Positions 1,582 through 17,673 of a stretch of DNA of 32,866 bases are shown here, piece by piece (position 1 is the first letter of the stretch; each line of letters begins with the position of its first letter). This DNA comes from an uncultured Desulfobulbaceae bacterium (GTDB lineage Bacteria; Desulfobacterota; Desulfobulbia; Desulfobulbales; Desulfocapsaceae), in contig CAISPV010000026.1 in NCBI GenBank assembly GCA_903887485.1, positions 1 to 32,866 on the forward strand, read 5' to 3'. The position numbers were made by a program, and so were the translations under genes. The notes beneath the pieces are model-generated. The model was not told the origin of the DNA, searched no databases, and saw only the letters and a program-made list of their open reading frames with translations.

Positions 1582-1800
1582 ATGAATCAAAGTAAGACAC
1601 CAACACTACACGGGGCCTCTGTTCAGGCGTTAGTGATAGATGATCTTCAAGCGGCAGAGCTGATTGGGATGAGCGTTTTCACATTGAGAAAATGGCGCAC
1701 TACTGGACATGGCCCAGCTTATATCAAGTGCGGGAAGTCTGTGAAGTATCGCCTGTCCGATCTGGAAGCTTACATTGAAAAGCAGATGGTGGCCCGGTAA
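1582..1800 (+). CDS. AlpA/excisionase-like helix-turn-helix protein
   Basis: This 72-residue protein contains a MerR-like winged-helix fold typical of AlpA and small excisionases: DDLQAAELIGMSVFTLRKW followed by GPAYIKCGKSVKYRLSDLE and a basic end. Relatives bind near att sites or the integrase promoter and switch element excision or early genes; P4 Vis and AlpA are examples. A good ribosome binding site (AAGGAGCTATT) precedes the ATG at 1582. The gene leads an operon: its stop codon overlaps the next start (TAATG). DNA-binding is a strong inference from the domain; whether it acts as an excisionase or a transcriptional activator cannot be told. Confidence 0.8.
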   Translation: MNQSKTPTLHGASVQALVIDDLQAAELIGMSVFTLRKWRTTGHGPAYIKCGKSVKYRLSDLEAYIEKQMVAR

Positions 1801-2033
1801 TGACCGCCAATGACAAAGCCCCAGTATCCGATCTGGCCGATCATATGGATAAAGAGGCTTCACAATCACAAAGTCATAATACCACACCCGACAAGCCAGT
1901 GCAACCAAGGGCTCGTCTCATCATGGTTATTGAACATGACCCCGGCCAGAAAGTTAAGGAAACCGCACTTATCCGTATTATGCGAGAAAGGGGCCACCAG
2001 ATTACTTCCGTTGAGAGGTGCGGCCATGATTGA
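1800..2033 (+). CDS. Small hypothetical protein of the replication operon
   Basis: This is a 77-residue soluble protein whose ATG shares one base with the alpA stop codon, so the two are probably translationally coupled. The first 35 residues are polar and low in complexity; the C-terminal half (RARLIMVIEHDPGQKVKETALIRIMRERG) is predicted to be helical. I recognise no domain. A competing longer frame at 1810-2208 overlaps it, but its sequence lacks a plausible start and crosses the repeat cluster. The second half of the ORF also contains one copy of the CCCGACAA word found in the upstream leader (1888-1895). Confidence 0.5.
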   Translation: MTANDKAPVSDLADHMDKEASQSQSHNTTPDKPVQPRARLIMVIEHDPGQKVKETALIRIMRERGHQITSVERCGHD

Positions 2034-2044
2034 CCTGAAAAGCC

Positions 2045-2173
2045 TTGTAATATCTGCATGTGAAATTGCCGTTACAAAATTACAAATCAAGAAAAACGAT
2101 TGTAACATGTTGATATATAACGTCTTTGCTTGTAATAAATTTGTAATTTCTGCCCATTACAAGTCGATTACAA
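2045..2173. repeat. Iteron cluster 1 (TTGTAA/TTACAA), candidate origin
   Basis: Eight perfect copies of TTGTAA or its complement occur in 129 bases: forward at 2045, 2100, 2130 and 2141, reverse at 2072, 2080, 2157 and 2168. Several extend to ATTACAAA/TTTGTAAT. The stretch is AT-rich, non-coding and lies directly upstream of the primase gene. A matching cluster follows the helicase gene. Such repeats are typical binding sites for an initiator or for a helicase-primase, so this is a candidate replication origin, or an operator for the operon. The binding protein is not identified. Confidence 0.6.
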
Positions 2174-2197
2174 AAGTACAAACAGGAGGTCAATATT

Positions 2198-2941
2198 ATG
2201 TCTATTGATGATCTGAGAGAATGCCTTCTGAAAAGTGAATTCGCTACGAATAAGACTACTGTCCACGGTGGCTTTATAAACAATCTCATTTGTCCTGAGT
2301 GCGGGAAATCAGACGCATATGCTTATGCGAATGCGCCATGGTCTATCGTTTGTAATAGGCAAAACAAGTGCGGAGCCAGAACGAAGACCGCAACATTATT
2401 TAATCTGGGCGCACAAGTTGAAACCAAATATCCAGCCACAGAAGAAGACAAGCATCGACCGGCAAAGACTTTTCTTGAACTCCGAGGCATTCCTGCTGAA
2501 AGCATAGACAAGTGCGGCTGTGAATACCACTCCAGCACAAGAAAAGGATGCGGCGGCGGCGTCATGTTTCCAGTTGGGAAGGATGACAAGGGTAACAATC
2601 TTTATAATGGACGTCTGTTTAATCCGCCTATTGGCGAAGGGAAAACGCACAATGTTGGAGCAGTTGCCGGGCACCATTGGCAGATGCCGGACATGATCTA
2701 CGATCCCGAAAAGCCGACCTATGTTACTGAGGGAATCATTGACGCCTTGTCTTTGATTGTCATGGGCTTTCAGGCGATTGCTGTTCTTGGCGCTGGCTAT
2801 GATCCTGCACGGTTTAACCTGGCAGCATTTGGGAATCTTGTCTTTGCCTTTGATAACGATAAGGCTGGCGGCAACTTTACGAAAAAATGGATGGAACACT
2901 ACCAGAGTGAGTCAAAGGAAGGAGGGTCTACCCATGACTAA
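2198..2941 (+). CDS. Zinc-ribbon TOPRIM DNA primase
   Basis: This 247-residue protein has two modules. An N-terminal zinc ribbon uses C32, C35, C52 and C58 (CPEC then CNRQNKC). A C-terminal TOPRIM fold follows, with YVTEGIIDAL carrying the catalytic Glu (E178) and FAFDNDKAGG carrying the D-x-D pair (D219, D221). TOPRIM primases of phages and satellites make short RNA primers for element replication. In P4 alpha, primase and helicase share one polypeptide; here they are two genes, and the helicase ATG lies inside the primase end (8-base overlap). An AGGAGG ribosome binding site precedes the ATG at 2198. It follows iteron cluster 1 directly, which supports a role in autonomous replication. Confidence 0.82.
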   Translation: MSIDDLRECLLKSEFATNKTTVHGGFINNLICPECGKSDAYAYANAPWSIVCNRQNKCGARTKTATLFNLGAQVETKYPATEEDKHRPAKTFLELRGIPAESIDKCGCEYHSSTRKGCGGGVMFPVGKDDKGNNLYNGRLFNPPIGEGKTHNVGAVAGHHWQMPDMIYDPEKPTYVTEGIIDALSLIVMGFQAIAVLGAGYDPARFNLAAFGNLVFAFDNDKAGGNFTKKWMEHYQSESKEGGSTHD

Positions 2942-4775
2942 GATTTCAGCTATCATGCCGCTTGATGGCGACTGGAACGATCTTCTTCTGCGTTCAGCCA
3001 GTTCTGAAAAGGCGGCTGAGCAATTTAACAAAAATCTTGAACGCTATCGTCTTCAGGCACGGTTGGCGCTGGCAGAAACCGCACAAATTTATGCCTCAAT
3101 TTATGTTGCTGGAAACAGCGGCTTTGCTCCTGGGCTGTTTTCCTTTCAAGGTCAATATTTCTGGAGCTGGGTTAAAAAATCATCGGATGAAGAAACGCCA
3201 CCTGAGATTTTTATCGAGCGAGCAAGCAATTTTACGATATCGGTTGAGCACTATCAGCGATCAGATGCAGATGAAGAGTTACCGGTATTTTTGTATCGGC
3301 TGAAGGTCATGCCCAAGCAAGGAAAGCCGGTTTATATCACGGCCAGTGGCAACGATCTTAAATCAGCTGACGGTCTTACCGGTCTATTTCTGCGTCATGG
3401 AAAAACGCATTGGTGCGGCAAGCAGGATGCGGCAAAGGCCTTTGCTGAGATGATTGTCGAGAGCAAGGCCCCTGTAGTCAGACAAGCAGAGTTCACCGGC
3501 TATGACCACAAAACCGGTTTTTATATCCTGAAAGATTTTGCCATTGATAAAAAAGGTGGGAAGGTAGCACCTGATAAAAACGGTTTTTATTCTGTTGGTC
3601 ATGGTGAATATTTACGGCCAGCACTGATTGAAACGATAAACCCCGGAACTGGCGACTTCCCTAAGCTGTACAGGTTATTACTTACGGCATGGGGGGATAA
3701 TGCGGCGGTGGCAGTGGCGTTTCTGACCGCCTCCCTGTTTGTTAATCAGGTTAAAAAGACCACTAAGTTTTTCCCTTTTTTAAGCATGTGGGGAGACACG
3801 CAAGTTGGAAAATCCCGGTTGACGATAATCTTGAACGCCATGCAGTGCTTGGATGAAGAAGGGCTTCCCATGAGTGGAGCCAATACCAAAAAAGGCGAAC
3901 TGCGAACTCTGGCACAAGTATCTGGGCACATGAAGGCACTTATTGAGGGCAACAACAAGGACAAGGCCAAGTTTGATTTTGAATCAATCCTTCCTCTATA
4001 TAATTATGGGAATGCGCTTCAAACCAGAGCGCAGACAACCAACGATAACAGAATTAACAAACTCCCTTTTCATGCGACATTGGCCTTTGTTCAGAACCGG
4101 GAACCATTCACCAGCAGGGCGGCAAAGGAGCGGGTTATCAGCCTGGAATTTTTACTTGCCGGCTTGAGTGAATCAACCAAGGCGGCCTTTGATGCACTGG
4201 TAGCAATTTCCATGCGGGAGCTGGCTGGATTTTATCCGGCTGTAATGGCTGGCCGGTCTTTTTTTGGAACCAACTGGAAAGACTTTTTTGAGAGATCAAA
4301 AGATGACCTGAAAGGAGATATCCCAGATAACCGCATCAATGAGAATCATGCTTTGATCCTGGCATTTCATCGGTTGCTCTGCCAGCATTTTAAGATTGAG
4401 CATGACTTGTTGCCCTTTGTTGCCAGCATCGGCAAGGCAAAGATGAAATCAGCACAGAAGCGACTGGAAACAGTTGCCGACCATTTTTTCAACATACTTC
4501 AAAATCTGCCGGATGAGATTACGGGGGCTGACGGTTCTGACAATACTACCAAGAATAGCTTCTGGGAGATCAAAGGAAAACAACTTTTTATCAATCGCGT
4601 CATGGCTGAGAAGACTATCAGAGAGGCAGGCTTCTCGCTTGATTACCCTGAGAAGTTGGGGAATTCTTTGCAAGAACATCCTGCGTTTGTCGAAAGTAAG
4701 ACGCATAGATTCCCTGGATTAAAAGACAAGCCGGTTAGCGGTATGATCTTTAATTTTGACCGGTTGTTTGAATAG
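2934..4775 (+). CDS. P-loop replicative helicase (P4-alpha/DUF927-like)
   Basis: The protein has 613 residues from the ATG at 2934, chosen because GGAAGGAGGG lies just upstream and because the in-frame sequence before it is antisense to nothing recognisable and overlaps the primase. The N-terminal 270 residues lack a clear domain. A Walker A motif, GDTQVGKS, sits at residues 287-294, with LIEGNN about 90 residues later as a probable Walker B region and FVQNREPFTSRAAKERVISL as a sensor or arginine-finger region. This is the layout of hexameric replication helicases found downstream of TOPRIM primases in satellites and islands. It is coupled to the primase and followed by the second iteron cluster. 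The exact superfamily (SF3 or DUF927-like) is uncertain. Confidence 0.75.
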   Translation: MTKISAIMPLDGDWNDLLLRSASSEKAAEQFNKNLERYRLQARLALAETAQIYASIYVAGNSGFAPGLFSFQGQYFWSWVKKSSDEETPPEIFIERASNFTISVEHYQRSDADEELPVFLYRLKVMPKQGKPVYITASGNDLKSADGLTGLFLRHGKTHWCGKQDAAKAFAEMIVESKAPVVRQAEFTGYDHKTGFYILKDFAIDKKGGKVAPDKNGFYSVGHGEYLRPALIETINPGTGDFPKLYRLLLTAWGDNAAVAVAFLTASLFVNQVKKTTKFFPFLSMWGDTQVGKSRLTIILNAMQCLDEEGLPMSGANTKKGELRTLAQVSGHMKALIEGNNKDKAKFDFESILPLYNYGNALQTRAQTTNDNRINKLPFHATLAFVQNREPFTSRAAKERVISLEFLLAGLSESTKAAFDALVAISMRELAGFYPAVMAGRSFFGTNWKDFFERSKDDLKGDIPDNRINENHALILAFHRLLCQHFKIEHDLLPFVASIGKAKMKSAQKRLETVADHFFNILQNLPDEITGADGSDNTTKNSFWEIKGKQLFINRVMAEKTIREAGFSLDYPEKLGNSLQEHPAFVESKTHRFPGLKDKPVSGMIFNFDRLFE

Positions 4776-4781
4776 TTGCTG

Positions 4782-4889
4782 TTACAAATATTACAACTCG
4801 TTACAGCTTTTATTACAAAATAATTATTATAATATTATATAGTTATATTACATTTATATGGGTTGTAACTTTGTAATCGTCTTTTGTAA
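4782..4889. repeat. Iteron cluster 2 (TTGTAA/TTACAA), candidate second cis-replication site
   Basis: Six perfect copies are present: reverse at 4782, 4791 and 4813, forward at 4863, 4871 and 4884, plus near-matches at 4801 and 4848. The two groups face each other across a 45-bp core made almost wholly of A and T (about 4819-4860), giving the cluster dyad symmetry. The last copy abuts the GGAG ribosome binding site of the next gene, so bound protein could also affect its expression. In P4 a similar paired arrangement (ori and crr) is needed for replication; that comparison is by analogy only. Confidence 0.6.
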
Positions 4890-4897
4890 GGAGCCCT

Positions 4898-5560
4898 ATG
4901 AATTTTATTGAAGCAGCAAAAAGAGCCCGTGGCGGATCAGGTATCATTCCAGTCTTTGAAGAACTGGTTTTACCCCGAACAGGAATGGGCCCGGCACCCG
5001 AACCCCAAAAAGGGGGCGGCGATTCACCACTCCCTTTATCTAAAGAAAGTATCGTTTCCTGCTTTACCTGTCACCATTACGACGGGAAAGGCCCCGCATG
5101 GCCCGGTATGTGTCGATACTTTGAAACAATCGGCGAGCAGGCCAAGGAGATTGATTTTAACATTGTTGACCCTGTGCACGGTTGCAAGTGTCACCAGGTG
5201 AATCCTCTTTATCTTGTGGCGGAAAGTAAGCGCATTAAACTTCATGGTGATGACCCCGGCTGGATATCGCTTGACCCTTTACGTCAATCTGTAAAGAGAG
5301 AGACCACCAGAAAGAAGCCTTCACCCGTTGCCCTGGAGTGGCTGAAGGATCACCTGCAAGCGTTACGGCGTAACGGCTGGACTGGCCGGGAACTGTACCG
5401 GCGGAATAAATCGAGAGGTATCTGCTGGTGTGTGTTATGGGATGCACCCTTTCTGAAGGTCTATCTCCACGACAACGGAGTCATTGAGCTTGAAACAGTA
5501 ATTGCTGGCAGAGATATAATCCAGACCGCAAGGCCAATGCACAGGCGCGAACAATTTTAG
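4898..5560 (+). CDS. Cys-rich hypothetical protein
   Basis: This 220-residue protein starts at an ATG with TAAGGAG upstream. It carries a cysteine cluster, CFTCHHYDG, then MCRYF and GCKCH, between about residues 55 and 118, probably binding a metal. The stretch between residues 25 and 50 is rich in Pro and Gly and likely disordered. The C-terminal part (VALEWLKDHLQALRRNGWTGRELYRRNK) is basic and helical and could contact nucleic acid. No known family is recognised. It is the first gene after the replication module, in the same direction and with 14 bases to the next gene, so it is probably co-transcribed. Confidence 0.6.
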   Translation: MNFIEAAKRARGGSGIIPVFEELVLPRTGMGPAPEPQKGGGDSPLPLSKESIVSCFTCHHYDGKGPAWPGMCRYFETIGEQAKEIDFNIVDPVHGCKCHQVNPLYLVAESKRIKLHGDDPGWISLDPLRQSVKRETTRKKPSPVALEWLKDHLQALRRNGWTGRELYRRNKSRGICWCVLWDAPFLKVYLHDNGVIELETVIAGRDIIQTARPMHRREQF

Positions 5561-5573
5561 GAGATCAAACGAT

Positions 5574-6095
5574 ATGAAGACCACTATGAACCGAGTACCT
5601 TTTGGCAACGAGACGAAGCTTTATATCATGGCGGGCAGTTGCCCCGGATGTGGAGCCGGGCGGAATCAGTATCATGCATATGGATGCCCACTTGAGCCTT
5701 GCCCACAATGCGGCGGGCGGCTGAACCATTGCTTTTGTATGGTATTGTCGATTGCAGATGAATTTAAGTTGACCAGGAAGCTTTCACAAACATTAACCAG
5801 GGATCAGGTTTTGAAGATGGCCGACACTTCAAAAGCCCTTGACCGCACTTATGAAGAGAAGGCGGGCTTCTCCTGGATATGTGATAACGCTTCACCTGAA
5901 TTGAAAAAAGAAATGGAGCGGCAAGCCTTAGAGATCATCGGCGGCACCAGACATGGAGATCTTATCCGCGTACCACTCGACAAGGCTGCAGAGTGCCTGG
6001 GCCTGAGTATTGAGGATGCGGCCCCGATCATGAATGAGCTTGAAAGCGAATGTCTTTATCCTGGATGGGATGAACGAACCGGGCAAGAACAATAA
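5574..6095 (+). CDS. Zinc-ribbon hypothetical protein
   Basis: This 173-residue protein has a dense N-terminal cysteine array: CPGCG, then CP, CPQCGG and CFC, within about residues 23-56, the pattern of one or two zinc ribbons. The remainder is a helical, acidic domain without recognised motifs. The start has TTAGGAGATC upstream. It lies between another Cys-rich protein and a DUF5681-like protein in one operon. Nothing in the sequence shows the role; a nucleic-acid-binding or regulatory function would be a guess. Confidence 0.6.
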   Translation: MKTTMNRVPFGNETKLYIMAGSCPGCGAGRNQYHAYGCPLEPCPQCGGRLNHCFCMVLSIADEFKLTRKLSQTLTRDQVLKMADTSKALDRTYEEKAGFSWICDNASPELKKEMERQALEIIGGTRHGDLIRVPLDKAAECLGLSIEDAAPIMNELESECLYPGWDERTGQEQ

Positions 6096-6117: not shown

Positions 6118-6558
6118 ATGGCTGAAAATACAGCAGGAAAACAGCGAGGCAAGCCATTCAGGCCGGGAATATCAGGAAATCCTGCAGGCAAGCCACCAGG
6201 GGCAAAGAACAGGGCCACGGTCTTGGCGCAAGCTCTGTTTGATGGTGAAGCGGAAACTCTGACACGGAAGATCATCGAGCTTGCCAAGGCAGGCGACATG
6301 CAGGCATTGAAGGTATGCGTTGACCGGCTTTGCCCTCCCATGAAGGCCCAGGCCGCGCCGGTACAGGTGGAGATCCCTGAAACAGAGAATATAAGTGTTA
6401 TCGCTAAAGCTTTCATCAAGGCAGCAGCTGATGGACGATTGCCGCCTGATGTGGCTGCTCAACTGGTATCAGCCGTTGGCACCCTGGCCCATATAGTGGA
6501 AGTTAATGAACTCAAAGAACGGCTGGCAGCATTGGAAGCTGCGGTAGGCCGAAAATAG
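6118..6558 (+). CDS. DUF5681-like protein
   Basis: This 146-residue protein has an N-terminal KPFRPGISGNPAGKPPGAKN, matching the F-K-x-G-x-S-G-N-P-x-G-R-P-x-G signature of DUF5681, a short basic domain common in prophages and islands. A helical region follows (ALFDGEAETLTRKIIELAKAG), and a C-terminal coiled-coil segment (VNELKERLAALEAAV) suggests oligomerisation. Some annotations place DUF5681 proteins beside terminase genes, but no large terminase is visible here. The function is unknown. The next gene starts 9 bases after its stop. Confidence 0.65.
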   Translation: MAENTAGKQRGKPFRPGISGNPAGKPPGAKNRATVLAQALFDGEAETLTRKIIELAKAGDMQALKVCVDRLCPPMKAQAAPVQVEIPETENISVIAKAFIKAAADGRLPPDVAAQLVSAVGTLAHIVEVNELKERLAALEAAVGRK

Positions 6559-6567
6559 GAGAAAATT

Positions 6568-7101
6568 ATGGATATTGGAAAGAAGCTCTACCAGGAGTTG
6601 ACACCCAAACAACGGGCTATTGCATGTTATTCGGCAATGAACCGGGACGATCAGGACGAAGTCGACCGATTAATGGGGCATGCACCAAGGGACGGAAAAC
6701 ACGGACAACCCATACTGGCATTAGGTCAGGCTCTGGATGCTTACAATTGCTTTACAGCAAGGGCAATGACCAACTACCTTCTTGTATCCAGTAGGTTAGT
6801 TGCGGCGCTATCATTTTGTGAAGCATGGCTTGATGCTGGAGGCGCGATAGATAATTTAAAGTATTCCGAAAAACTTGCCATGATTCAGATATTAACGCCA
6901 TTAAGTGAACAATGGGCAGGCGTAGTAAAAGCTGTTCGGCAGGCTACATGGGAATGGTGCAAAATGAATCAAATTCCCACGGACCTTTTTTCGAGTCCGC
7001 TCTGTCCTTTGCCAATGCCAAAAGAGAAGGAGGAGCAAGGTGACAGCGAAACACTTAATACAGTACGTTCGCTGTTTGACAAAATAACGCTGGCTTGGTG
7101 A
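6568..7101 (+). CDS. Hypothetical protein, last gene of the replication operon
   Basis: This 177-residue, mostly helical soluble protein starts with MDIGKKLYQELTPKQRAIAC and ends in an acidic tail. A ribosome binding site, AGGAGAAAATT, overlaps the preceding stop region. I recognise no domain, signal peptide or metal site. It closes the rightward run that starts at alpA; the following 340 bases carry only a fragment of an antitoxin-like gene. Confidence 0.55.
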   Translation: MDIGKKLYQELTPKQRAIACYSAMNRDDQDEVDRLMGHAPRDGKHGQPILALGQALDAYNCFTARAMTNYLLVSSRLVAALSFCEAWLDAGGAIDNLKYSEKLAMIQILTPLSEQWAGVVKAVRQATWEWCKMNQIPTDLFSSPLCPLPMPKEKEEQGDSETLNTVRSLFDKITLAW

Positions 7102-7442
7102 GTTTTGAAAATTTTTACAGCGGAGAATTCAGAATACCTAACTCAAACAGACTGCACGACTTTTGATGATGGACGATGGCCAAGGTGCTGTTGCTCAATG
7201 AGATGATCATCCAGAGTGTCCGGCCTGCCGAGTTTGCCCGCCGCCTTGCGGGCCATGGGGAAGTATCTGGATATGCGGGTGGTGTGAAAAGGGTCTGCCC
7301 CCTTAAATACTATTTAGTTCCAGATAACATGCCCTATCATCTTCCTTATAGCTCTGCACACCGTATAATCCTGGCCCGTTATATCCATCGGTTGATATCT
7401 TGAATTGGCAAATAATGGGGTTTGTCTCTTATAATTCCCTGT
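7102..7442. other. Junction between replication operon and cargo, with a HicB-like antitoxin remnant
   Basis: No intact gene is seen. On the plus strand at about 7170-7265 the translation KVLLLNEMIIQSVRPAEFARRL resembles the C-terminal HTH end of HicB-like antitoxins, but it has no upstream part and soon loses similarity. It is best read as a decayed toxin-antitoxin remnant. The sequence AAGGGTCTGCCCCCTTAA at about 7287 is a short palindrome. The rest shows nothing I can support. Confidence 0.35.
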
Positions 7443-7694
7443 TTACTCCTCGTCCTCGTCCCAACTCCCCGGTTTCTCCGCCGGTATCAGGATTTCGTCC
7501 TTTAGCACCATTTCTTCCGCCTCGTGGAGTTGCAGTCCCGTCTTTAGTAGCTGGTTTATCTGAAAGTTTGCGCTTTTCGCTGCCGATAAGGTCAGCCTGT
7601 CGAAGCTGTTCGCCTTCTTCATCGCTGCTACCATGTGGGGGCACCACTTCGCCCAATGGTGCTTTGCCTGTATTTGCAGTTCCTCGACGCTCAT
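7443..7694 (-). CDS. Small acidic-tailed protein, third gene of the PLD-TPR operon
   Basis: This is an 83-residue protein whose ATG (7694) overlaps the stop codon of the TPR gene (7691-7693), so it is translationally coupled to it. The middle is helical and amphipathic (HHWAKWCPHMVAAMKKANSFDRL); the end is proline-acidic (ILIPAEKPGSWDEDEE). No domain is recognised. Conservation of the coupling with the two upstream genes would argue for a shared complex. It may be an accessory or immunity-type subunit, but that is a guess. Confidence 0.55.
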   Translation of the reverse strand: MSVEELQIQAKHHWAKWCPHMVAAMKKANSFDRLTLSAAKSANFQINQLLKTGLQLHEAEEMVLKDEILIPAEKPGSWDEDEE

Positions 7695-8581
7695 TTCTCC
7701 TCCATTGGTGGGTTTGCTATCCCTACTTTCAGTGTCGCTCTTCCCGCGTCGTTCCGCAACTTCCTGTTCGTAATTATTTCTACCATGTACTCTCTAAGAT
7801 AGTAGGTGACATAGGTGTCTATATTGGGGATCAAGTCCTTGAAGGTGCCCACCAGGTACTGAACGTACTCTTTCAACGACCTGCCAGCCTCGTTCATCTT
7901 CTTCCAACCAGCTTCAAAGTGTGGCCGTGCCTTTGAATAGGTGTCACGATCAAGGGTCGGCGGGAAGGACAAGAGCTTGTTCGAATCAAGAGTGTCTTCG
8001 CTATCCATCCCTGTTGCGTCCATTCCTGGATAGAATCTTACTGCTTCGTACCACACTCTAAGATAGGGTCGCACAGAATCGCCAAGATCGGAAATCATTT
8101 TTTGTGAGTAAGCGACGAAGGACCGGGCCCCGGCCTCGATGTGGTAACCGGCAAGCTCAGCACCAAGAACACGCAATTCAGGATCAAGCCCTGAGTGCCA
8201 TTGTGTAATAGCATCTTCCTGGTTGATGCGGATGGCCTCTCGATAGGCTTCAATAGCCTCATCGAAATGGTCGGACATAACATAGGCAAGCCCAAGGTAA
8301 AACCAAGCTTCAGCATCTTCTGGACAAGTTTTCGTCCAATAAAGCATATGATTTAGCAGACCTGTCCAGTTTTCTTTGTCAAAAAAATCATCAGCTTGCT
8401 TAAGCCAGTCTACGGCAGTTCGTTTCATCCCAACATGAGATGCACACCGTTTACAATGACCTTGATTGGCACTAGTCTGAATCCTTGCCAAGACCTTCTC
8501 AGTTGTCGTCACTTGCCGGGTAACAGACGCAACAACCCCGCGCTGGCAAACAGCGACTATGGCACGACTCTTATCGCTCAT
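7691..8581 (-). CDS. TPR-repeat protein coupled to the PLD nuclease
   Basis: This 296-residue protein has a helical region with TPR-like repeats, the clearest being AEAWFYLGLAYVMSDHFDEA followed by IEAYREAIRIN (about residues 90-120). TPR arrays mediate protein-protein contacts and occur often as sensor or adaptor parts of defence systems. The assigned ATG at 8581 overlaps the PLD gene stop (ATGA), which supports this start; an alternative is Met52 (MKRTAVDWLKQ), in which case residues 1-51, with the short CKRC motif, would not be translated. The C-terminal 130 residues have no recognised domain. It probably forms a complex with the PLD-J protein. Confidence 0.72.
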   Translation of the reverse strand: MSDKSRAIVAVCQRGVVASVTRQVTTTEKVLARIQTSANQGHCKRCASHVGMKRTAVDWLKQADDFFDKENWTGLLNHMLYWTKTCPEDAEAWFYLGLAYVMSDHFDEAIEAYREAIRINQEDAITQWHSGLDPELRVLGAELAGYHIEAGARSFVAYSQKMISDLGDSVRPYLRVWYEAVRFYPGMDATGMDSEDTLDSNKLLSFPPTLDRDTYSKARPHFEAGWKKMNEAGRSLKEYVQYLVGTFKDLIPNIDTYVTYYLREYMVEIITNRKLRNDAGRATLKVGIANPPMEEK

Positions 8582-9966
8582 GCAACGGTGGCCTCCATGC
8601 GCTCCAGTTCCTCTTGAAGCTGTTGTTTGAGGGTGGCGAAATATTCATCCCAATCCTTGATGGCAAGTATCTTGCGATAGGCGTCTGTGGTTCGAATGGC
8701 TGAAATGGACACAGACAAATCCTTGGCCTTGCCGCGAATCCTGACCACCTGGCCGTGCAGTTTCTGGGCATCGCTGATTGTGGCGCTCATCGGCGTGAAT
8801 ATCCCTTTTTGCAGTTGCTCGTAGATGGCCTTTACCACCAGGATGTCGTTTTTGCCGTTGGCCTCGCTTAATCTGGCGAACAGGTGAGAGGCTTCGGCCT
8901 TGAAGTCCTGGGCAACCACATCCGGATGGCACATTTTGGAGCAGGCCCGAAACATGGCCTTCAGCTCCTGCTGTTCCGCCTCGGTCACCTTGAAAAGCTC
9001 CTGCTTGCTGGTCTCCTGAAAGTCCTGGTCGTACTCGTCATATTCCTGCCGGGCTTCCTGATATTCCTCTTCCTTGTCTGCATCCTGTTCGGCCTCAACC
9101 TTCAACTTCTCGCGGCGTAACTGCAGAATCCGGCGGATGATTTCGCCAACCTCAATCGCATGGCGATAATTATATGTGTGCAGCAATTTTTCCAGCTCGG
9201 TCTTTTCATCCTCAAGGGAGCCGACCTGGAGCTCCAGGGCTTTCAATTCCAGTGTCAGTTCCGGGATTTCCGGGTCAACATAAACAGCAATCTGTTTGCG
9301 GGAATGGACAAAGGTCTTGATAGCGGTAATTGCCTGATCAAGCTGATCATCCTCTATCTGGGCAACGATCTTTTTTACTTCGTCATACTCGTTGCCACCC
9401 GAAAGAAGTTTTTTCAGTTTGGCAAGCTGAAGCTCAATATCATCCTCATCGTCCAACTCAATGACAAGACGCAGTGCCTCAAGCCTTGCAATAATCTTGC
9501 CAAACTCGGCCCCGCTCACACCCTTGTCGGAATGACGGTCAACGAGAGATTCGAATTCTGCAAGAAACTGTCGTGCTAATTCGGGATGATCGGAAATGAC
9601 TGTGATGTTCTCGCTATTCTGCTGGGCCTTGCGGCTCCAGTTGTAGGAACCGGTAATGACGGTTGCGCTGTCGATTACGCAGAACTTGTTGTGCATGAGG
9701 GTGGAGTTTTTCTTATTATCCCCAACCATCATGAACATGCCGCCTAAGTCGCGTAAACGCTCATACTGGAGGCCACCTTTACGGTTAATCGAGTCATTGA
9801 CGACAATCAGCTCTACACATATGCCGGAGCCGGCCTTCTGACAGAGTTGTTCAAATATGTCGGGATCGGTAAACCAGGCTACCGCAATATGAATTGACGA
9901 GGTTGCCTTGCGGAGTTCGTGCAGAATGTGAAGCTGGATGTCGTCAAAATATGCTTGGGTTTGCAT
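8578..9966 (-). CDS. PLD-like nuclease fused to a coiled coil and a J-like domain
   Basis: The protein has 462 residues. Residues 1-145 form a phospholipase D-like domain: IHIAVAWFTDPDIFEQLC, then one HKD motif (H92, K94, D99) followed by GSYNWS. A single HKD implies dimerisation to complete the active site, as in Nuc-type endonucleases. Residues about 160-330 are charged and coiled-coil-like. Residues about 332-388 resemble a shortened J domain, with MFRACSKMCHPDV carrying HPD at 347-349 and then LFARLSEANGKND. J domains stimulate Hsp70 ATPase or recruit chaperones. Domain order, coupling to a TPR gene and location in a mobile element suggest a defence effector; the substrate is not known. 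No strong ribosome binding site precedes the ATG at 9966. Confidence 0.78.
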   Translation of the reverse strand: MQTQAYFDDIQLHILHELRKATSSIHIAVAWFTDPDIFEQLCQKAGSGICVELIVVNDSINRKGGLQYERLRDLGGMFMMVGDNKKNSTLMHNKFCVIDSATVITGSYNWSRKAQQNSENITVISDHPELARQFLAEFESLVDRHSDKGVSGAEFGKIIARLEALRLVIELDDEDDIELQLAKLKKLLSGGNEYDEVKKIVAQIEDDQLDQAITAIKTFVHSRKQIAVYVDPEIPELTLELKALELQVGSLEDEKTELEKLLHTYNYRHAIEVGEIIRRILQLRREKLKVEAEQDADKEEEYQEARQEYDEYDQDFQETSKQELFKVTEAEQQELKAMFRACSKMCHPDVVAQDFKAEASHLFARLSEANGKNDILVVKAIYEQLQKGIFTPMSATISDAQKLHGQVVRIRGKAKDLSVSISAIRTTDAYRKILAIKDWDEYFATLKQQLQEELERMEATVA

Positions 9967-13640: not shown

Positions 13641-15911
13641 CTATCGGTAATAGAGGTGAGGGCTGCCCATGGTCATGAGGGATTTGTAGAGGTTGCGTCT
13701 GAATTCTCGGCGATCCCATATTCCTTGAATGTGCCCGCGTTTGAGGGCGTTTCTGGCGGAATGGTAATCAGGGGGAATGTCAATTCCCGTGGTCTCGCGG
13801 ATGACTCGGTGACCGGCAAAGCCAATACGGCTGGAGCGGATAGCAAATTGATAGGGTGAGCAACCTAAGAAACTGGCAACGGGTCCGGCGTAGGAATTGT
13901 TGTCATAGACGACAATGTAGAGTCCACCCGCATCAATATATTCACGTACGGCCATGGTGCATTTGGGCATCTGGGTGACCCCCAGGGTTCCTTCCTGGAT
14001 ACGAATGCCGCCCGTGGTGTGGACATAGGAGATCAGTGGTCGTTTTTTACGCTTGGCCACGGCGCAGGCCTGAATGAATTTTTCCCCTTCTGCTGAGCCT
14101 ACCGTTCCGTTTCTGAAATCGGAGTAGAGCATACTTACGACAACCTGAATATCCATAATCCGGGCATGAAAGGTCATATTGCCGGCGTTACGTCCGGTCT
14201 TCTTTTTTGATGATTGTAACCGATCATCAAACCCGGTGTATCCCAGAGGATTGCCGGCAGTAATTTCAGTGTTGAAGATCCGGATAGAGTCAGGATCAAA
14301 GATGTTTTTCAGATACCACTTATGCTCCAGGGGGAAGTGGTGGCCGCAGGTTTCGCAGACCCCGGCAAATTCACCAAAAAGGTCTGGCACCCACAGATCC
14401 TTGCACCCATATTTTTCGCTATTGGGACAGGTAATGGTGCGATCCACATTGGCGAGCGGGCTGGTATAGGTGTCTGTCAGCTCCAGTGGATCCTGAATAT
14501 TGCCTGGAGTCGGGGTCCCGTCTGAGTGAGCAAGCTGGGGACGGATGCATTTTTTGTCTTTTTGCTGGGAAAAAAAATCAATGGCGCTGGTGATGGGTGA
14601 TGTGACCCGTTTAAGGATTACGGTTCCTTCTCCAGAGACATCTTTGAAAACCTTTTGCACCTGTTTCTGGTGATTTTTCAGGATATCATACCGCAGGGTA
14701 TAATAGACTTTTTCGGCCCCTTCCTGAAGTTCTCTGAGGAATTTCCCAGTAGGAGTGGGCAGGCCACTGAAACCCAACGTGGCCATTTCTCTATATTTTT
14801 TTGAGCGCCCGGCCAGCAGACGGGTGATTTCATCCTGATTAAGATCCCAGGAAACGTCAACCTGGAGTTCCTGGGCCTCGGTTTCTGCCTTCTTTCGTTT
14901 GATTTCATATGAGCGGAAGGCCCTGAAGCTTTTGGTACCCAGGACGACTTTATCAGTAGCTTGCATAACCTCCGCACGAAGCTGGGCAAAAAAGGCAAAA
15001 TCATCTCTTCTGGCGCCCAGTGGCGGTTCCTGGATGATATGATCGATGGTGCCAAAGGCAAGATTATCTGTTGCTGTCAATTTGAGCCGCTCGGCGCAGA
15101 CCTCAATGAGCTCTTTGGGCACCTTATTGCCTTCTTTCACCTTTCCCTCAATGGCTGCGGCCCCTTCTGGTGAGATGACTGAATAGTAGCCATGGGAACA
15201 CATCATCCGATAATCAGAGAGTCCGATGGCTTCAGCCCCTCCTGAACCACCCTCGGAGATCATGGAAACCATGGGAACCCGCAGTTTGGCCATAGCGTAG
15301 ATATTACGGGCGATCTGTTGCGCGGCCCCAGGGTATTCTTCCACCGGGAAGGAGCCAGGGGTAAAAACGTAGAAGTGGATAGGAATGCCTTCGGTCTCTG
15401 CGACCTTCATATAGCGAAGGGCTTTTTCGTTTCCTTCGGGTTTGCAGGAGCCGCCATTACGGAATTCCTCGCCATGGCCGGTTTCCTGACCAATGACCAT
15501 GACTGAGGCGGTGTAAGGTTTATTCTTGATGCGCCTGACGATGGTGGCCTTGGCGCAGACCATGGCCGGATCGATATTAGCATCACCCTCGCCTCCAAGT
15601 TCAGTATAGTCCTCATAGACGTTTTCGAGGATGTCTTTAAGGCTGAAACGCTGGATGCTGCGGACAATCCGTACTCGTTCCATCGGGGTAAGCTGCTCTT
15701 CGGCCCGCTCTTCGAGAAAACAGATGGATTCGTGCAGTCTGTGGATCTCGCTGGCAAATTGGTCTTCACTGTGATCATAAACCGTCTGCTTCAGCTTGTT
15801 GCAAGTCTCTTTAAAGCCGTCCAGGTTGCCCCAGTTGGAGTAGTCCTTGAGCTGAATCAGGTAGTTGATGCGTTCTTCGATTTTATGGAGCTGTTTAAGT
15901 AATGCGTTCAT
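13641..15911 (-). CDS. Fused acetyl-CoA carboxylase carboxyltransferase (AccA-AccD)
   Basis: This 756-residue protein joins both carboxyltransferase subunits. The N-terminal half is AccA-like: FPVEEYPGAAQQIARNIYAM, SEGGSGGAEAIG (residues 219-230) and YYSVISPEGAAAI. The C-terminal half is AccD-like: a four-Cys zinc site (C495, C503, C519, C522), then HTTGGIRIQEGTLGVTQMPK (631-650), the oxyanion-hole region. The enzyme moves the carboxyl group from carboxybiotin to acetyl-CoA, giving malonyl-CoA for fatty acid synthesis. In E. coli these are two genes; the A-then-D fusion is unusual. A biotin carboxylase gene lies upstream on the same strand, but no biotin carrier gene is in the window. Other acyl-CoA substrates cannot be excluded. 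Confidence 0.85.
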   Translation of the reverse strand: MNALLKQLHKIEERINYLIQLKDYSNWGNLDGFKETCNKLKQTVYDHSEDQFASEIHRLHESICFLEERAEEQLTPMERVRIVRSIQRFSLKDILENVYEDYTELGGEGDANIDPAMVCAKATIVRRIKNKPYTASVMVIGQETGHGEEFRNGGSCKPEGNEKALRYMKVAETEGIPIHFYVFTPGSFPVEEYPGAAQQIARNIYAMAKLRVPMVSMISEGGSGGAEAIGLSDYRMMCSHGYYSVISPEGAAAIEGKVKEGNKVPKELIEVCAERLKLTATDNLAFGTIDHIIQEPPLGARRDDFAFFAQLRAEVMQATDKVVLGTKSFRAFRSYEIKRKKAETEAQELQVDVSWDLNQDEITRLLAGRSKKYREMATLGFSGLPTPTGKFLRELQEGAEKVYYTLRYDILKNHQKQVQKVFKDVSGEGTVILKRVTSPITSAIDFFSQQKDKKCIRPQLAHSDGTPTPGNIQDPLELTDTYTSPLANVDRTITCPNSEKYGCKDLWVPDLFGEFAGVCETCGHHFPLEHKWYLKNIFDPDSIRIFNTEITAGNPLGYTGFDDRLQSSKKKTGRNAGNMTFHARIMDIQVVVSMLYSDFRNGTVGSAEGEKFIQACAVAKRKKRPLISYVHTTGGIRIQEGTLGVTQMPKCTMAVREYIDAGGLYIVVYDNNSYAGPVASFLGCSPYQFAIRSSRIGFAGHRVIRETTGIDIPPDYHSARNALKRGHIQGIWDRREFRRNLYKSLMTMGSPHLYYR

Positions 15912-15947
15912 AAAGAGAGTGCTGTTCCAGGTTGCAGGTGATTAGCT

Positions 15948-16005
15948 GCCGTTATGAAATAAACAGTGTTTTTTTTGCTTATTTTATAACGGCACCTTAT
16001 GCCGC
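15948..16005. repeat. Dispersed palindromic repeat, copy A
   Basis: GCCGTTATGAAATAA (15948-15962) and TTATTTTATAACGGC (15979-15993) are inverted with one wobble mismatch, followed by ACCTTATGCCGC. The outer word TAACGGC-x-C-x-TTATGCCG recurs at 16183-16200 and, in variant form, at 28071-28132. Confidence 0.55.
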
Positions 16006-16007
16006 TT

Positions 16008-16043
16008 CAAATAAACAGCCAATCTTTTTCGGCTGTTTATTTG
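16008..16043. repeat. Perfect 13-bp inverted repeat
   Basis: CAAATAAACAGCC (16008-16020) and GGCTGTTTATTTG (16031-16043) form a perfect stem with a 10-base loop. No T-run follows on the minus strand, so it is not a standard intrinsic terminator. Confidence 0.7.
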
Positions 16044-16164
16044 AGTGGCGCTTGGCAGATAACATACAACGGCGAGCTTTATACTATCATGTAGTTTTTG
16101 ATGAAAGTTATTTGAGTGGTGTCTGGCAGATATCTCATCAGGAGCTGTTATGAAAAACCCCTTA

Positions 16165-16200
16165 TCTTTCCGACCATCTCGTTACGGCTCTTTATGCCGG
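16165..16200. repeat. Dispersed repeat, copy B (half unit)
   Basis: About 33 bases, including CGACCATCTCGTTACGGCTC then TTTATGCC, match the reverse complement of 28071-28105 with about six differences. It is a half-palindrome of the same family as copies A and C. Confidence 0.5.
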
Positions 16201-16257
16201 CCACGGCATTTCAATGTTACGATTATTTTCAGAGTCTTTGTTTACCTGACCGATGGT

Positions 16258-17673
16258 TTAGAAGGTCAGCAGGCGGTCCAGGTTGTCTTTCAAATATTCC
16301 AGGTTGGTGACAATGGAGCCTCCGTGCGAGTCTTGACCGCGAATGAAGACTTCATCAATAAACTGTCCAGCCCGGTGCTTGGCTTCTTCCATGGAATCTC
16401 CCCATACCAGGGCCAGGGCCAGGTTGGGGTCATATTCACTGGGAATCCGGTATTCCCGGTCAGAAGGGACATGGGAATAGACGGTTGACCATTCGTGCTC
16501 AGGAAAATGGAAGTCGGTGATGGTGCCAATCCAGGGAGCAAAGCCGCGTCGGGTGTCTTCGGCGACAATACGCAGTTCAATGGACGCCCCTTTAAACTCG
16601 ATGGATTTCTGTTTGTAGCCAATCTTTTCACCCAGGCCCAGTCTGATCTGTTCACGAATCAGATTGGGGTGCTGATTGTCAAGATAGCTGATGCGGGCGG
16701 AGACATCATTTTCCACCTGGATCCGGGTGTTGACCTCCAGCAGATAGGGTTGGCCGGATCTGCTGACAATCCATTCCCACGTGCCAACGTTGTCATAACG
16801 GACATGGGCGGCCAGTTTCAGTGAATAGTCAACGATCTGTTCCAGTACCTTCTGTTCGTCAAAATCATAGGTGAAACAGGAACGATGAAACCCCGGCGCC
16901 GCTTCCACCCGTTTCTGACGGCCTGTTGACTGGATGGTGCAATTCCGGGAACCAAAGTGGATTCGTTCGCCATGGCGGGAACAGACCAGTTGTACCTCAA
17001 GATGGTTATAGTCACGCAGGCATTGTTCGATCAGGACGCCGCCGTCGCCGAACTGGCGTTTGGCATAGTTCTGGACCTGGCGATAGATGCGTCGGAACTG
17101 CTCGATTTCAGTGACCTCTTCAATGCCCATGCCGCCGCCGCCAGCTGCTGCCTTGACCAGGATGGAAGGGCCCTTGATATCCTGGGCCAGTTGATGGTCC
17201 ATGAGTCTCTGGGCGATCTCTTCTGCCTCCATCTCGTTGTAGATGGGGCTGTCGGTGCCAGGAATGGTGGGGATTCCCAGTTTGTTGGCGACCCGTTTGG
17301 TGTTGATTTTGTCGCCAAGGCTTTTGATGACCTCCCAGTTTGGCCCGATAAAGGTGAGGGGGCGGTCCCTGAGAGTTGCCCGTCTAGCAAAACGATAGTC
17401 TTCCGAGAAAAAACCATACCCTGGATGGATGGCGGTGCAATGGGTGTGATCGGCAACCGCGAAGATATCATTGGGTTCGGTGTAGCTGGTAATCCGCCAG
17501 GCGTTCTGATCGGCGCCGCTTATCCGGTTGTGCTGGACGTGCTCGGAGTCCTTGTCGGCGTCAGTATAGACCACTGTATATTCCAGACCCAGATCCTTGC
17601 AGGCATTCATGATGCGGATTGCGATTTCGCCTCGATTGGCAATGAGGACCTTTCCTTGCAAACTGTTACTCAT
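16258..17673 (-). CDS. accC: Biotin carboxylase subunit of acetyl-CoA carboxylase
   Basis: This 471-residue protein has the complete biotin carboxylase layout. The N-terminal domain has KVLIANRGEIAIRIMNACKD (8-27) and HPGYGFFSED (83-92). The ATP-grasp domain has the glycine-rich KAAAGGGGMGI (174-184). The active-site segment is GTWEW and then YLLEVNTRIQVEND, with the C-terminal domain carrying ELRIVAED. The Glu, Asn, Arg and Gln positions known from E. coli AccC are kept, while the usual VEH-P is VEND and FLSEN is FFSED, so this is a divergent member. It carboxylates the biotin of a carrier protein using ATP and bicarbonate. The fused carboxyltransferase lies 346 bases downstream on the same strand; the carrier protein is not in the window. 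Confidence 0.88.
   Translation of the reverse strand: MSNSLQGKVLIANRGEIAIRIMNACKDLGLEYTVVYTDADKDSEHVQHNRISGADQNAWRITSYTEPNDIFAVADHTHCTAIHPGYGFFSEDYRFARRATLRDRPLTFIGPNWEVIKSLGDKINTKRVANKLGIPTIPGTDSPIYNEMEAEEIAQRLMDHQLAQDIKGPSILVKAAAGGGGMGIEEVTEIEQFRRIYRQVQNYAKRQFGDGGVLIEQCLRDYNHLEVQLVCSRHGERIHFGSRNCTIQSTGRQKRVEAAPGFHRSCFTYDFDEQKVLEQIVDYSLKLAAHVRYDNVGTWEWIVSRSGQPYLLEVNTRIQVENDVSARISYLDNQHPNLIREQIRLGLGEKIGYKQKSIEFKGASIELRIVAEDTRRGFAPWIGTITDFHFPEHEWSTVYSHVPSDREYRIPSEYDPNLALALVWGDSMEEAKHRAGQFIDEVFIRGQDSHGGSIVTNLEYLKDNLDRLLTF

Follow-up and report, generated by a model that had tools for sequence, protein, structure and literature searches.

The window analysed here is a 32,866-bp stretch of DNA from an uncultured Desulfobulbaceae bacterium (contig CAISPV010000026.1 of assembly GCA_903887485.1), in which two clusters of the repeat word TTGTAA/TTACAA stand on either side of a primase gene and a helicase gene. 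Taken as a whole, the region probably serves a small integrated mobile element as its replication module, comprising an AlpA-like regulator, a TOPRIM primase, a putative self-loading initiator helicase and a candidate origin. Judging from sequence comparison, the replication helicase that the element itself encodes most likely docks at both clusters. Cluster 2, directly after the helicase gene, looks like the replication origin; it is read in this way because of the origin layout of Staphylococcus aureus pathogenicity islands (SaPIs) and phage-inducible chromosomal islands (PICIs), together with a predicted helicase fold that is nearest to Cch and SaPIbov1 Rep. For cluster 1, ahead of the primase gene, an autoregulatory operator that is also an auxiliary binding site is the preferred reading, held with about even confidence. 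Among related elements, the layout is kept while the word is swapped.

The word occurs 27 times in the window, against a mean of 13.1 and a maximum of 23 in 100 shuffles. Fourteen of these copies lie in the two clusters (eight and six, at exactly the positions given in the original prediction, an earlier note made on this DNA), and the 13 copies outside them equal the chance expectation. When each cluster region was shuffled 200 times, none of the shuffles reached the observed counts. Similar density elsewhere, which that note had named as grounds for giving up its proposal, was not seen, as 6-mers containing a G or C never exceeded four copies per 130 bp away from the clusters (whole contig, steps of 10). 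In the 3.19-Mb genome, 17 close TTACAA pairs (gap 1-12) were found, six of them in the two clusters, and a reversed control pattern gave four. Elsewhere in that genome, a TTACAA triple lies at C55:4424-4447 (L210), with no larger cluster seen at the triple, and C82:22804-23236 holds two pairs some 400 bp from each other.

Both clusters are non-coding, as had been noted, and sit between likely genes (Table 1). Cluster 1 begins 11 bp after a small open reading frame (ORF) and ends 10 bp before the Shine-Dalgarno sequence of the primase gene. Cluster 2 begins 6 bp past the helicase stop and is followed by an ORF at 4898. The dyad symmetry noted for cluster 2 was also borne out, with three exact words, an A/T core and three inverted words. 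Read from the sequence, cluster 1 does not have a long A/T core such as that of cluster 2.

Table 1. Features of the proposed replication module and its surroundings (window coordinates)
Feature	Position	Strand	Remarks
AlpA/MerR-like small helix-turn-helix (HTH) regulator	1582..1800	+	Pfam HTH_17, E 7e-10; PHROG 66 excisionase/regulator, E 6e-8
Small ORF, no function assigned by match	1800..2033	+	No Pfam/PHROG match at E 0.05
Cluster 1	2045..2173	none	Eight words, oriented −, +, +, −, −, −, +, + (TTACAA as +)
AGGAGG, probable ribosome-binding site of primase ORF	2184..2189	+	Read directly
TOPRIM primase half, 247 aa	2198..2941	+	Toprim_2, E 1.5e-10; PHROG 1139 positions 22-242
Initiator helicase half, 613 aa (putative)	2934..4775	+	PHROG 1139 positions 263-764; predicted fold
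C-terminal winged-helix-like domain, presumed word reader	4554..4772	+	AlphaFold secondary structure
Cluster 2, proposed origin	4782..4889	none	Six exact words, oriented +, +, +, core, −, −, −; also TTACAG at 4801
A/T core of cluster 2, proposed unwinding element	4808..4853	none	46 bp; 95% A+T in richest 40 bp
DUF5681 protein	6118..6558	+	E 4e-13

Related elements were sought by searching for the helicase in three overlapping sets of 144 (kin), 257 (order) and 395 (phylum) genomes; it was present in 7, 15 and 3 of them, in that order, counting the genome of the window. Together with L010, a Deltaproteobacteria metagenome-assembled genome, and five viral contigs, the window and the genome finds made up 20 elements in which the sequence extends past the gene. 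The downstream count excludes two loci with upstream sequence only (G156, G158) and one (G066) that is decayed where its contig ends. L010 is the closest relative, its helicase being 88% identical to that of the window. Further scans of viral contigs for relatives added only partial loci (L068, L201), and other searches returned only G261 again. The text portions available from a literature search contained no description of origins in this primase-helicase family.

All 20 elements carry at least three copies of one word in a cluster starting 1-79 bp past the stop, the word of each element having been picked by the author after inspection of counts and sequence. These words are TTACAA (window, L010), GCTACA (G006, G002), GGTTACA (G035, L039), GGCAACA (G012), GGTGACA (G019, G175, G193), GTGACAG (L038), TGGGGAC (G179a), GGCCACA (G179b), GGGTACA (G171), TGTCACA (G186), GGCTACA (G160), GGTAGCA (G261), GGGGACT (L040), GGTAACA (L041) and GGGTGCA (L042). 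Thus the word varies between elements; the frame GG-NN-ACA usually fits, and the word of the window is without the GG. In a de novo test, in which 6-mer counts in the 400 bp after the stop were compared with 200 dinucleotide shuffles, no shuffle reached the observed count in 17 of the 20 elements. The original prediction would also have fallen if close relatives had lost the clusters; L010 keeps both (10 and 4 exact copies). In relatives at or below 59% identity TTGTAA itself is not clustered, but another word is, directly after the gene. An apparent loss of clusters in these distant relatives was dismissed once other words were sought.

In seven of the 20 elements (G012, G019, G179a, G171, G175, L038, L042) a larger layout was found, consisting of 4-6 words, 2-3 inverted words, an A/T core and at least three words; that of the window is shorter. 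When the window was aligned with L010, 79 of the 84 columns in the window's words were identical, against 155 of 193 columns outside them (p 0.003), and one site had flipped between TTGTAA and TTACAA and was still a site. The A/T core shares 19-20 identical nucleotides with G012, G171 and G193 despite their differing words (0/1000 shuffles each), and 13 with L010, G179b and G186 (9-13/1000 shuffles). One 20-mer of the core (4829-4848) is common to G171 and G193. A scan with the A/T-core pattern gave nine stretches, of which two were on already-known contigs (L038, L040), L073 and L078 had GTACA-type words, and the other five (two sequences twice) showed nothing similar. On the viral contig L073, at about 2440-2800, the same A/T core and AGTACA words lie after a different primase (PHROG 3022/1156).

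A second, upstream cluster was seen only in the subclade of the window (support 100/99), where the window, L010, G006 and G002 have it at matching positions. A second cluster of at least three words was not found in any of the 16 remaining elements within 4-40 kb, some of these loci being short. The pairing of clusters emphasized in the earlier note is therefore real in the window but holds for only four of the 20 elements, the others having one compound cluster after the gene. When upstream sequences of 21 family elements were tested (only 108 bp for L039), no shuffle of 200 reached the counts of the window and L010 (k=6) or of G006 (k=8). Both clusters use TTACAA in the window and L010, and both use GCTACA in G006 and G002. 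Because the two clusters switch word together within the subclade, one protein probably reads both.

The element's own helicase is the probable reader. An AlphaFold model of it (pLDDT 82) resembles SCCmec Cch (5dgk; Z 22.9, root-mean-square deviation (rmsd) 6.4, 458 aligned, residues 65-609) and SaPIbov1 Rep (8tch; Z 20.0, rmsd 4.8, 437 aligned, residues 66-613), at a sequence identity of about 11-12% in these alignments. The Pfam models DUF927 and HTH_56 were not matched by the window helicase at E 0.05, nor was any other Pfam model, and the fused proteins of L010 and L015 matched only Toprim models at E 0.01. A winged-helix-like C-terminal unit is predicted to start at about residue 541. In SaPI Rep, according to a published account, the C-terminal domain reads the origin directly downstream of the gene (PMC7581432).

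This C-terminal unit tends to diverge where the word does. Among pairs at least 60% identical in the helicase, winged-helix identity minus helicase identity averaged +0.007 for three same-word pairs and -0.150 for 24 different-word pairs, the pairs not being independent; among more distant pairs the contrast was small (-0.087 versus -0.109 and -0.073 versus -0.102 for same-word versus different-word pairs). The clearest case is G179a and L042, whose words differ and whose helicases are 89% and winged helices 52% identical, a comparison limited to 254 helicase residues of G179a by an in-frame stop. The same-word pairs window/L010 and G006/G002 gave helicase and winged-helix identities of 88/91% and 84/95% respectively. 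Also, helicase residue 590, first noticed by eye, is R or K mainly in elements whose word has G or C as its fourth letter. In a column scan of 18 sequences (L010 and G002 having been removed from the 20 as near-duplicates, columns of more than three gaps omitted, six label sets), none of 500 shuffles reached column 590 under two of the label sets; a single further column, 329, likewise gave 0/500. R or K occurs in 7 of 8 elements with G/C and in 0 of 10 with A/T (Fisher 2.5e-4, uncorrected for columns or kinship). The rule fits inside the family and is kept as a lead only. Its extension beyond the family was rejected, since it fails in an eye alignment of 14 distant DUF927-type ORFs of viral contigs, in which eight from GGGAACA loci (including two near-identical pairs) carry R or K and those from GGGGACA and GGGCACA loci do not.

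On this basis, a mechanism may be proposed in which the C-terminal winged helix of the helicase binds the TTACA(A) word. The opposed words of cluster 2 would flank the A/T core, two helicase assemblies would load there and melt the core, and the element's own primase would prime at the melted origin. The same helicase may read cluster 1, limiting its own expression, and cluster 1 may also serve as an auxiliary site. The operator reading of cluster 1 is drawn from its position next to the ribosome-binding site of the primase, its lack of a long A/T core and its restriction to one clade. In the original prediction, either the element was a two-site replicon or the two clusters were an autoregulatory operator pair. 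Its proposal of the element's own primase-helicase as probable binder, with an adjacent origin, is supported by the present analysis, but the choice that it posed is not, as cluster 2 fits an origin and cluster 1 an operator or auxiliary site.

Several observations weigh against this interpretation. The de novo downstream test was not significant in L010 (28/200), G006 (33/200) and G002 (43/200), which are the nearest kin of the window and have only four exact downstream copies. Thirteen of the 19 family partners share no A/T-core sequence beyond shuffles (at least 46/1000). The upstream cluster of G002 was not found de novo, only by word query and alignment, and it mixes GCTACA and GTTACA; by word, there are three GCTACA against 0.1 expected, with two GTTACA beside them, and in an alignment the sites coincide with those of the window, L010 and G006. 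The C-terminal domain alone is weakly matched, with no Foldseek hit at E 0.001; its best match (Z 5.8) is a relaxosome accessory protein of pCW3 in complex with oriT DNA, and its match to Cch (Z 4.2) is tied with unrelated proteins. L038 and G193 have the same word, yet their helicases and winged helices are 74/62% identical, and the pairs L038/L040 (61/69%), G012/G019 (63/62%) and G179b/G171 (73/67%) keep similar values despite different words. No comparable cluster was found near the gene in 12 of the 14 distant records, from phages and plasmids, that were examined (6-7.5 kb each). Finally, the split primase-helicase frame of the window could mean a decaying element.

An essential two-site replicon of the phage P4 kind, in which both clusters are needed in cis as ori and crr, differs from the preferred interpretation only in the role of cluster 1 and is possible, if on the unlikely side. 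P4 itself has crr 45 bp beyond the alpha gene and an upstream ori with the same repeat, and cluster 1 is richer in words than cluster 2 and occupies the same place in all four subclade members. The single compound cluster of the other 16 elements, some with short flanking DNA, argues in the opposite direction, and a cluster without a long A/T core that adjoins a ribosome-binding site suits an operator better.

It is less likely that cluster 2 is the remnant of a once-working origin whose primase-helicase is now broken. The split between primase and helicase, described in the earlier note as a split alpha protein, comes down to a single base that the window has in excess of L010 at the junction. 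In L010 the two halves form a fused protein of 858 aa, and PHROG 1139 also spans both as one protein. The fused protein is uninterrupted in 15 of the 20 elements (L010, G006 and G002 among them), and interrupted, besides the window, in G179a, G186, G193 and G160; these breaks speak for decay. Against decay, the words are better conserved than their surroundings, as given above. Moreover, GGAAGGAGGG (2917-2926) lies ahead of the helicase start codon (ATG at 2934), and the primase and helicase ORFs share 8 bp, an arrangement that resembles translationally coupled genes; pri and rep of PICIs are only 'sometimes fused' (PMC6092414). Interrupted primase-helicase frames were also noted in several related loci (L023, L026/L036, L028/L037, L029/L034, L031), and the primase-helicase of G193 likewise consists of two overlapping ORFs, split at another place.

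That AlpA or another regulator of the element binds both clusters as an operator pair, neither being an origin, is improbable. Cluster 1 does adjoin the start of the primase and cluster 2 that of the ORF at 4898, but the family repeatedly shows a cluster behind the helicase gene, partly with a shared A/T core, and the PICI origins described in PMC6092414 occupy that very position. Chance repeats in A/T-rich DNA, a thought invited by the 58-59% A+T of both regions over 400-450 bp, may be set aside almost entirely in view of the shuffle tests, the chance-level number of copies elsewhere and the presence of both clusters in L010.

Words of the GG-NN-ACA frame were also sought in viral contigs generally. 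At least 120 stretches were returned, against 102 for a letter-permuted control, raw counts that offer no clean contrast. At least six identical words in both orientations were present in 34 of the 120 matches listed, compared with 6 of 102 in the control, five of the six control clusters having the single word GAGGGCA. Of 22 listed clusters checked for neighbours, 16 have a long ORF ahead of them, with the cluster on its 3' side at a distance of up to about 730 bp (ambiguous L097 left out); ten of these ORFs were searched against families, and nine proved to be primase/helicases (DUF927 4, VapE-like 4, DUF5906 1) and one a capsid gene. Because the pattern itself fixes GG and ACA, the scan shows such clusters to be common but gives no measure of how rare other frames are. 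A broader and rather doubtful proposal is that many mobile-element initiator helicases share a GG-NN-ACA (or GG-NNN-ACA) frame, in which the central letters would change in step with a few positions of the winged helix that read them, giving each element a private origin. Residue 590 would track the fourth letter within the present family, and the one subclade that repeats its word before the primase would have gained self-control of its initiator.

The contig is the entire window and begins inside the element. After cluster 2, two ORFs without Pfam or PHROG matches are followed by the DUF5681 protein and one more ORF. L010 also has a DUF5681 protein past its replication module (7021-7587, E 1e-13), as well as a tyrosine integrase upstream of it (257-1687). 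At the start of the L010 contig, an apparent 3' part of a tRNA gene was recognized by reading, and ARAGORN reported no complete tRNA. Among seven loci tried, no direct repeats convincing as att sites were found. Upstream of the AlpA-like gene, the window encodes at 162-771 a RelE-like toxin, weakly matched in PHROG (E 0.005), together with an HTH_3 protein; the two resemble a toxin-antitoxin pair, and the HTH end is repeated at about 914-1090. A promoter-like TTGACT-17-TATAAT (11/12 matches) also precedes the AlpA-like gene, at 1261-1289; the region shows no enrichment of sites of this kind (7 versus 6.4 in shuffles). Beyond the element, genes for a tetratricopeptide repeat protein and a phospholipase D (PLD)-domain protein occupy 7694-9966 on the minus strand, and carboxylase genes lie at 13644-17673.

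The 20 related elements constitute a natural series with a constant layout and a changing word, including two near-identical helicases with different words. This series allows changes of initiator specificity to be tested, and also the choice of word as an incompatibility code between co-resident elements. The layout further offers a route to origins in unannotated elements.

Among known systems, the original prediction had turned to phage P4. The likeness in repeat layout stands, since both have two separate repeat regions with one word, and crr, which begins 45 bp beyond the alpha stop in the P4 record, lies just beyond alpha as cluster 2 lies beyond the helicase. The 8-bp type 1 repeat present in both ori and crr of P4 is of the GGTGAACA kind and shares GG...ACA with the family of the window, as do the words of the PICI EcCICFT073. 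P4 ori is upstream of the entire operon, whereas cluster 1 is directly ahead of the primase. An hhalign comparison with P4 alpha detected no relation (probability 1.6, a weak test with only a single P4 sequence), the predicted fold being nearer to Cch and SaPIbov1 Rep. Phage phi3 (Peduoviridae) carries a PHROG 1139 primase of the same protein family with 10 CGGAACA words after the gene. The 14 distant records mentioned above (L044-L051, L204-L209) comprise Peduoviridae, other phages and two plasmids with TOPRIM primase-helicase relatives. In Pseudomonas phage PaBSM-2607-JFK (L207), 11 copies of CCTTCCA/TGGAAGG, outside the GG-NN-ACA frame, lie at 5063-5600, after a primase-like gene.

SaPI and PICI replicons, according to published descriptions (PMC6092414, PMC7581432), share with the window an AlpA-like gene, a primase and a Rep helicase, an origin (in the window a candidate one) placed directly after the gene and two iteron sets around an A/T region. 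The window differs from them in its extra cluster before the primase and in a word without GG. Its primase is also of the TOPRIM type, and those of SaPIbov1 and SaPI5 are archaeo-eukaryotic primases (AEPs) according to PMC7581432. In Gram-negative PICIs, the initiator is followed on its 3' side by an A/T region between two iteron sets, and pri-ori plasmids of EcCICFT073 were tested for maintenance in DH5alpha alongside controls deleted for ori or pri, both according to PMC6092414. The helicase of EcCICFT073 is of the D5 type, whereas that of the window has the predicted fold of Cch and SaPIbov1 Rep. By eye, GGTAGACA-type words and variants of them lie right after the primase gene of EcCICFT073.

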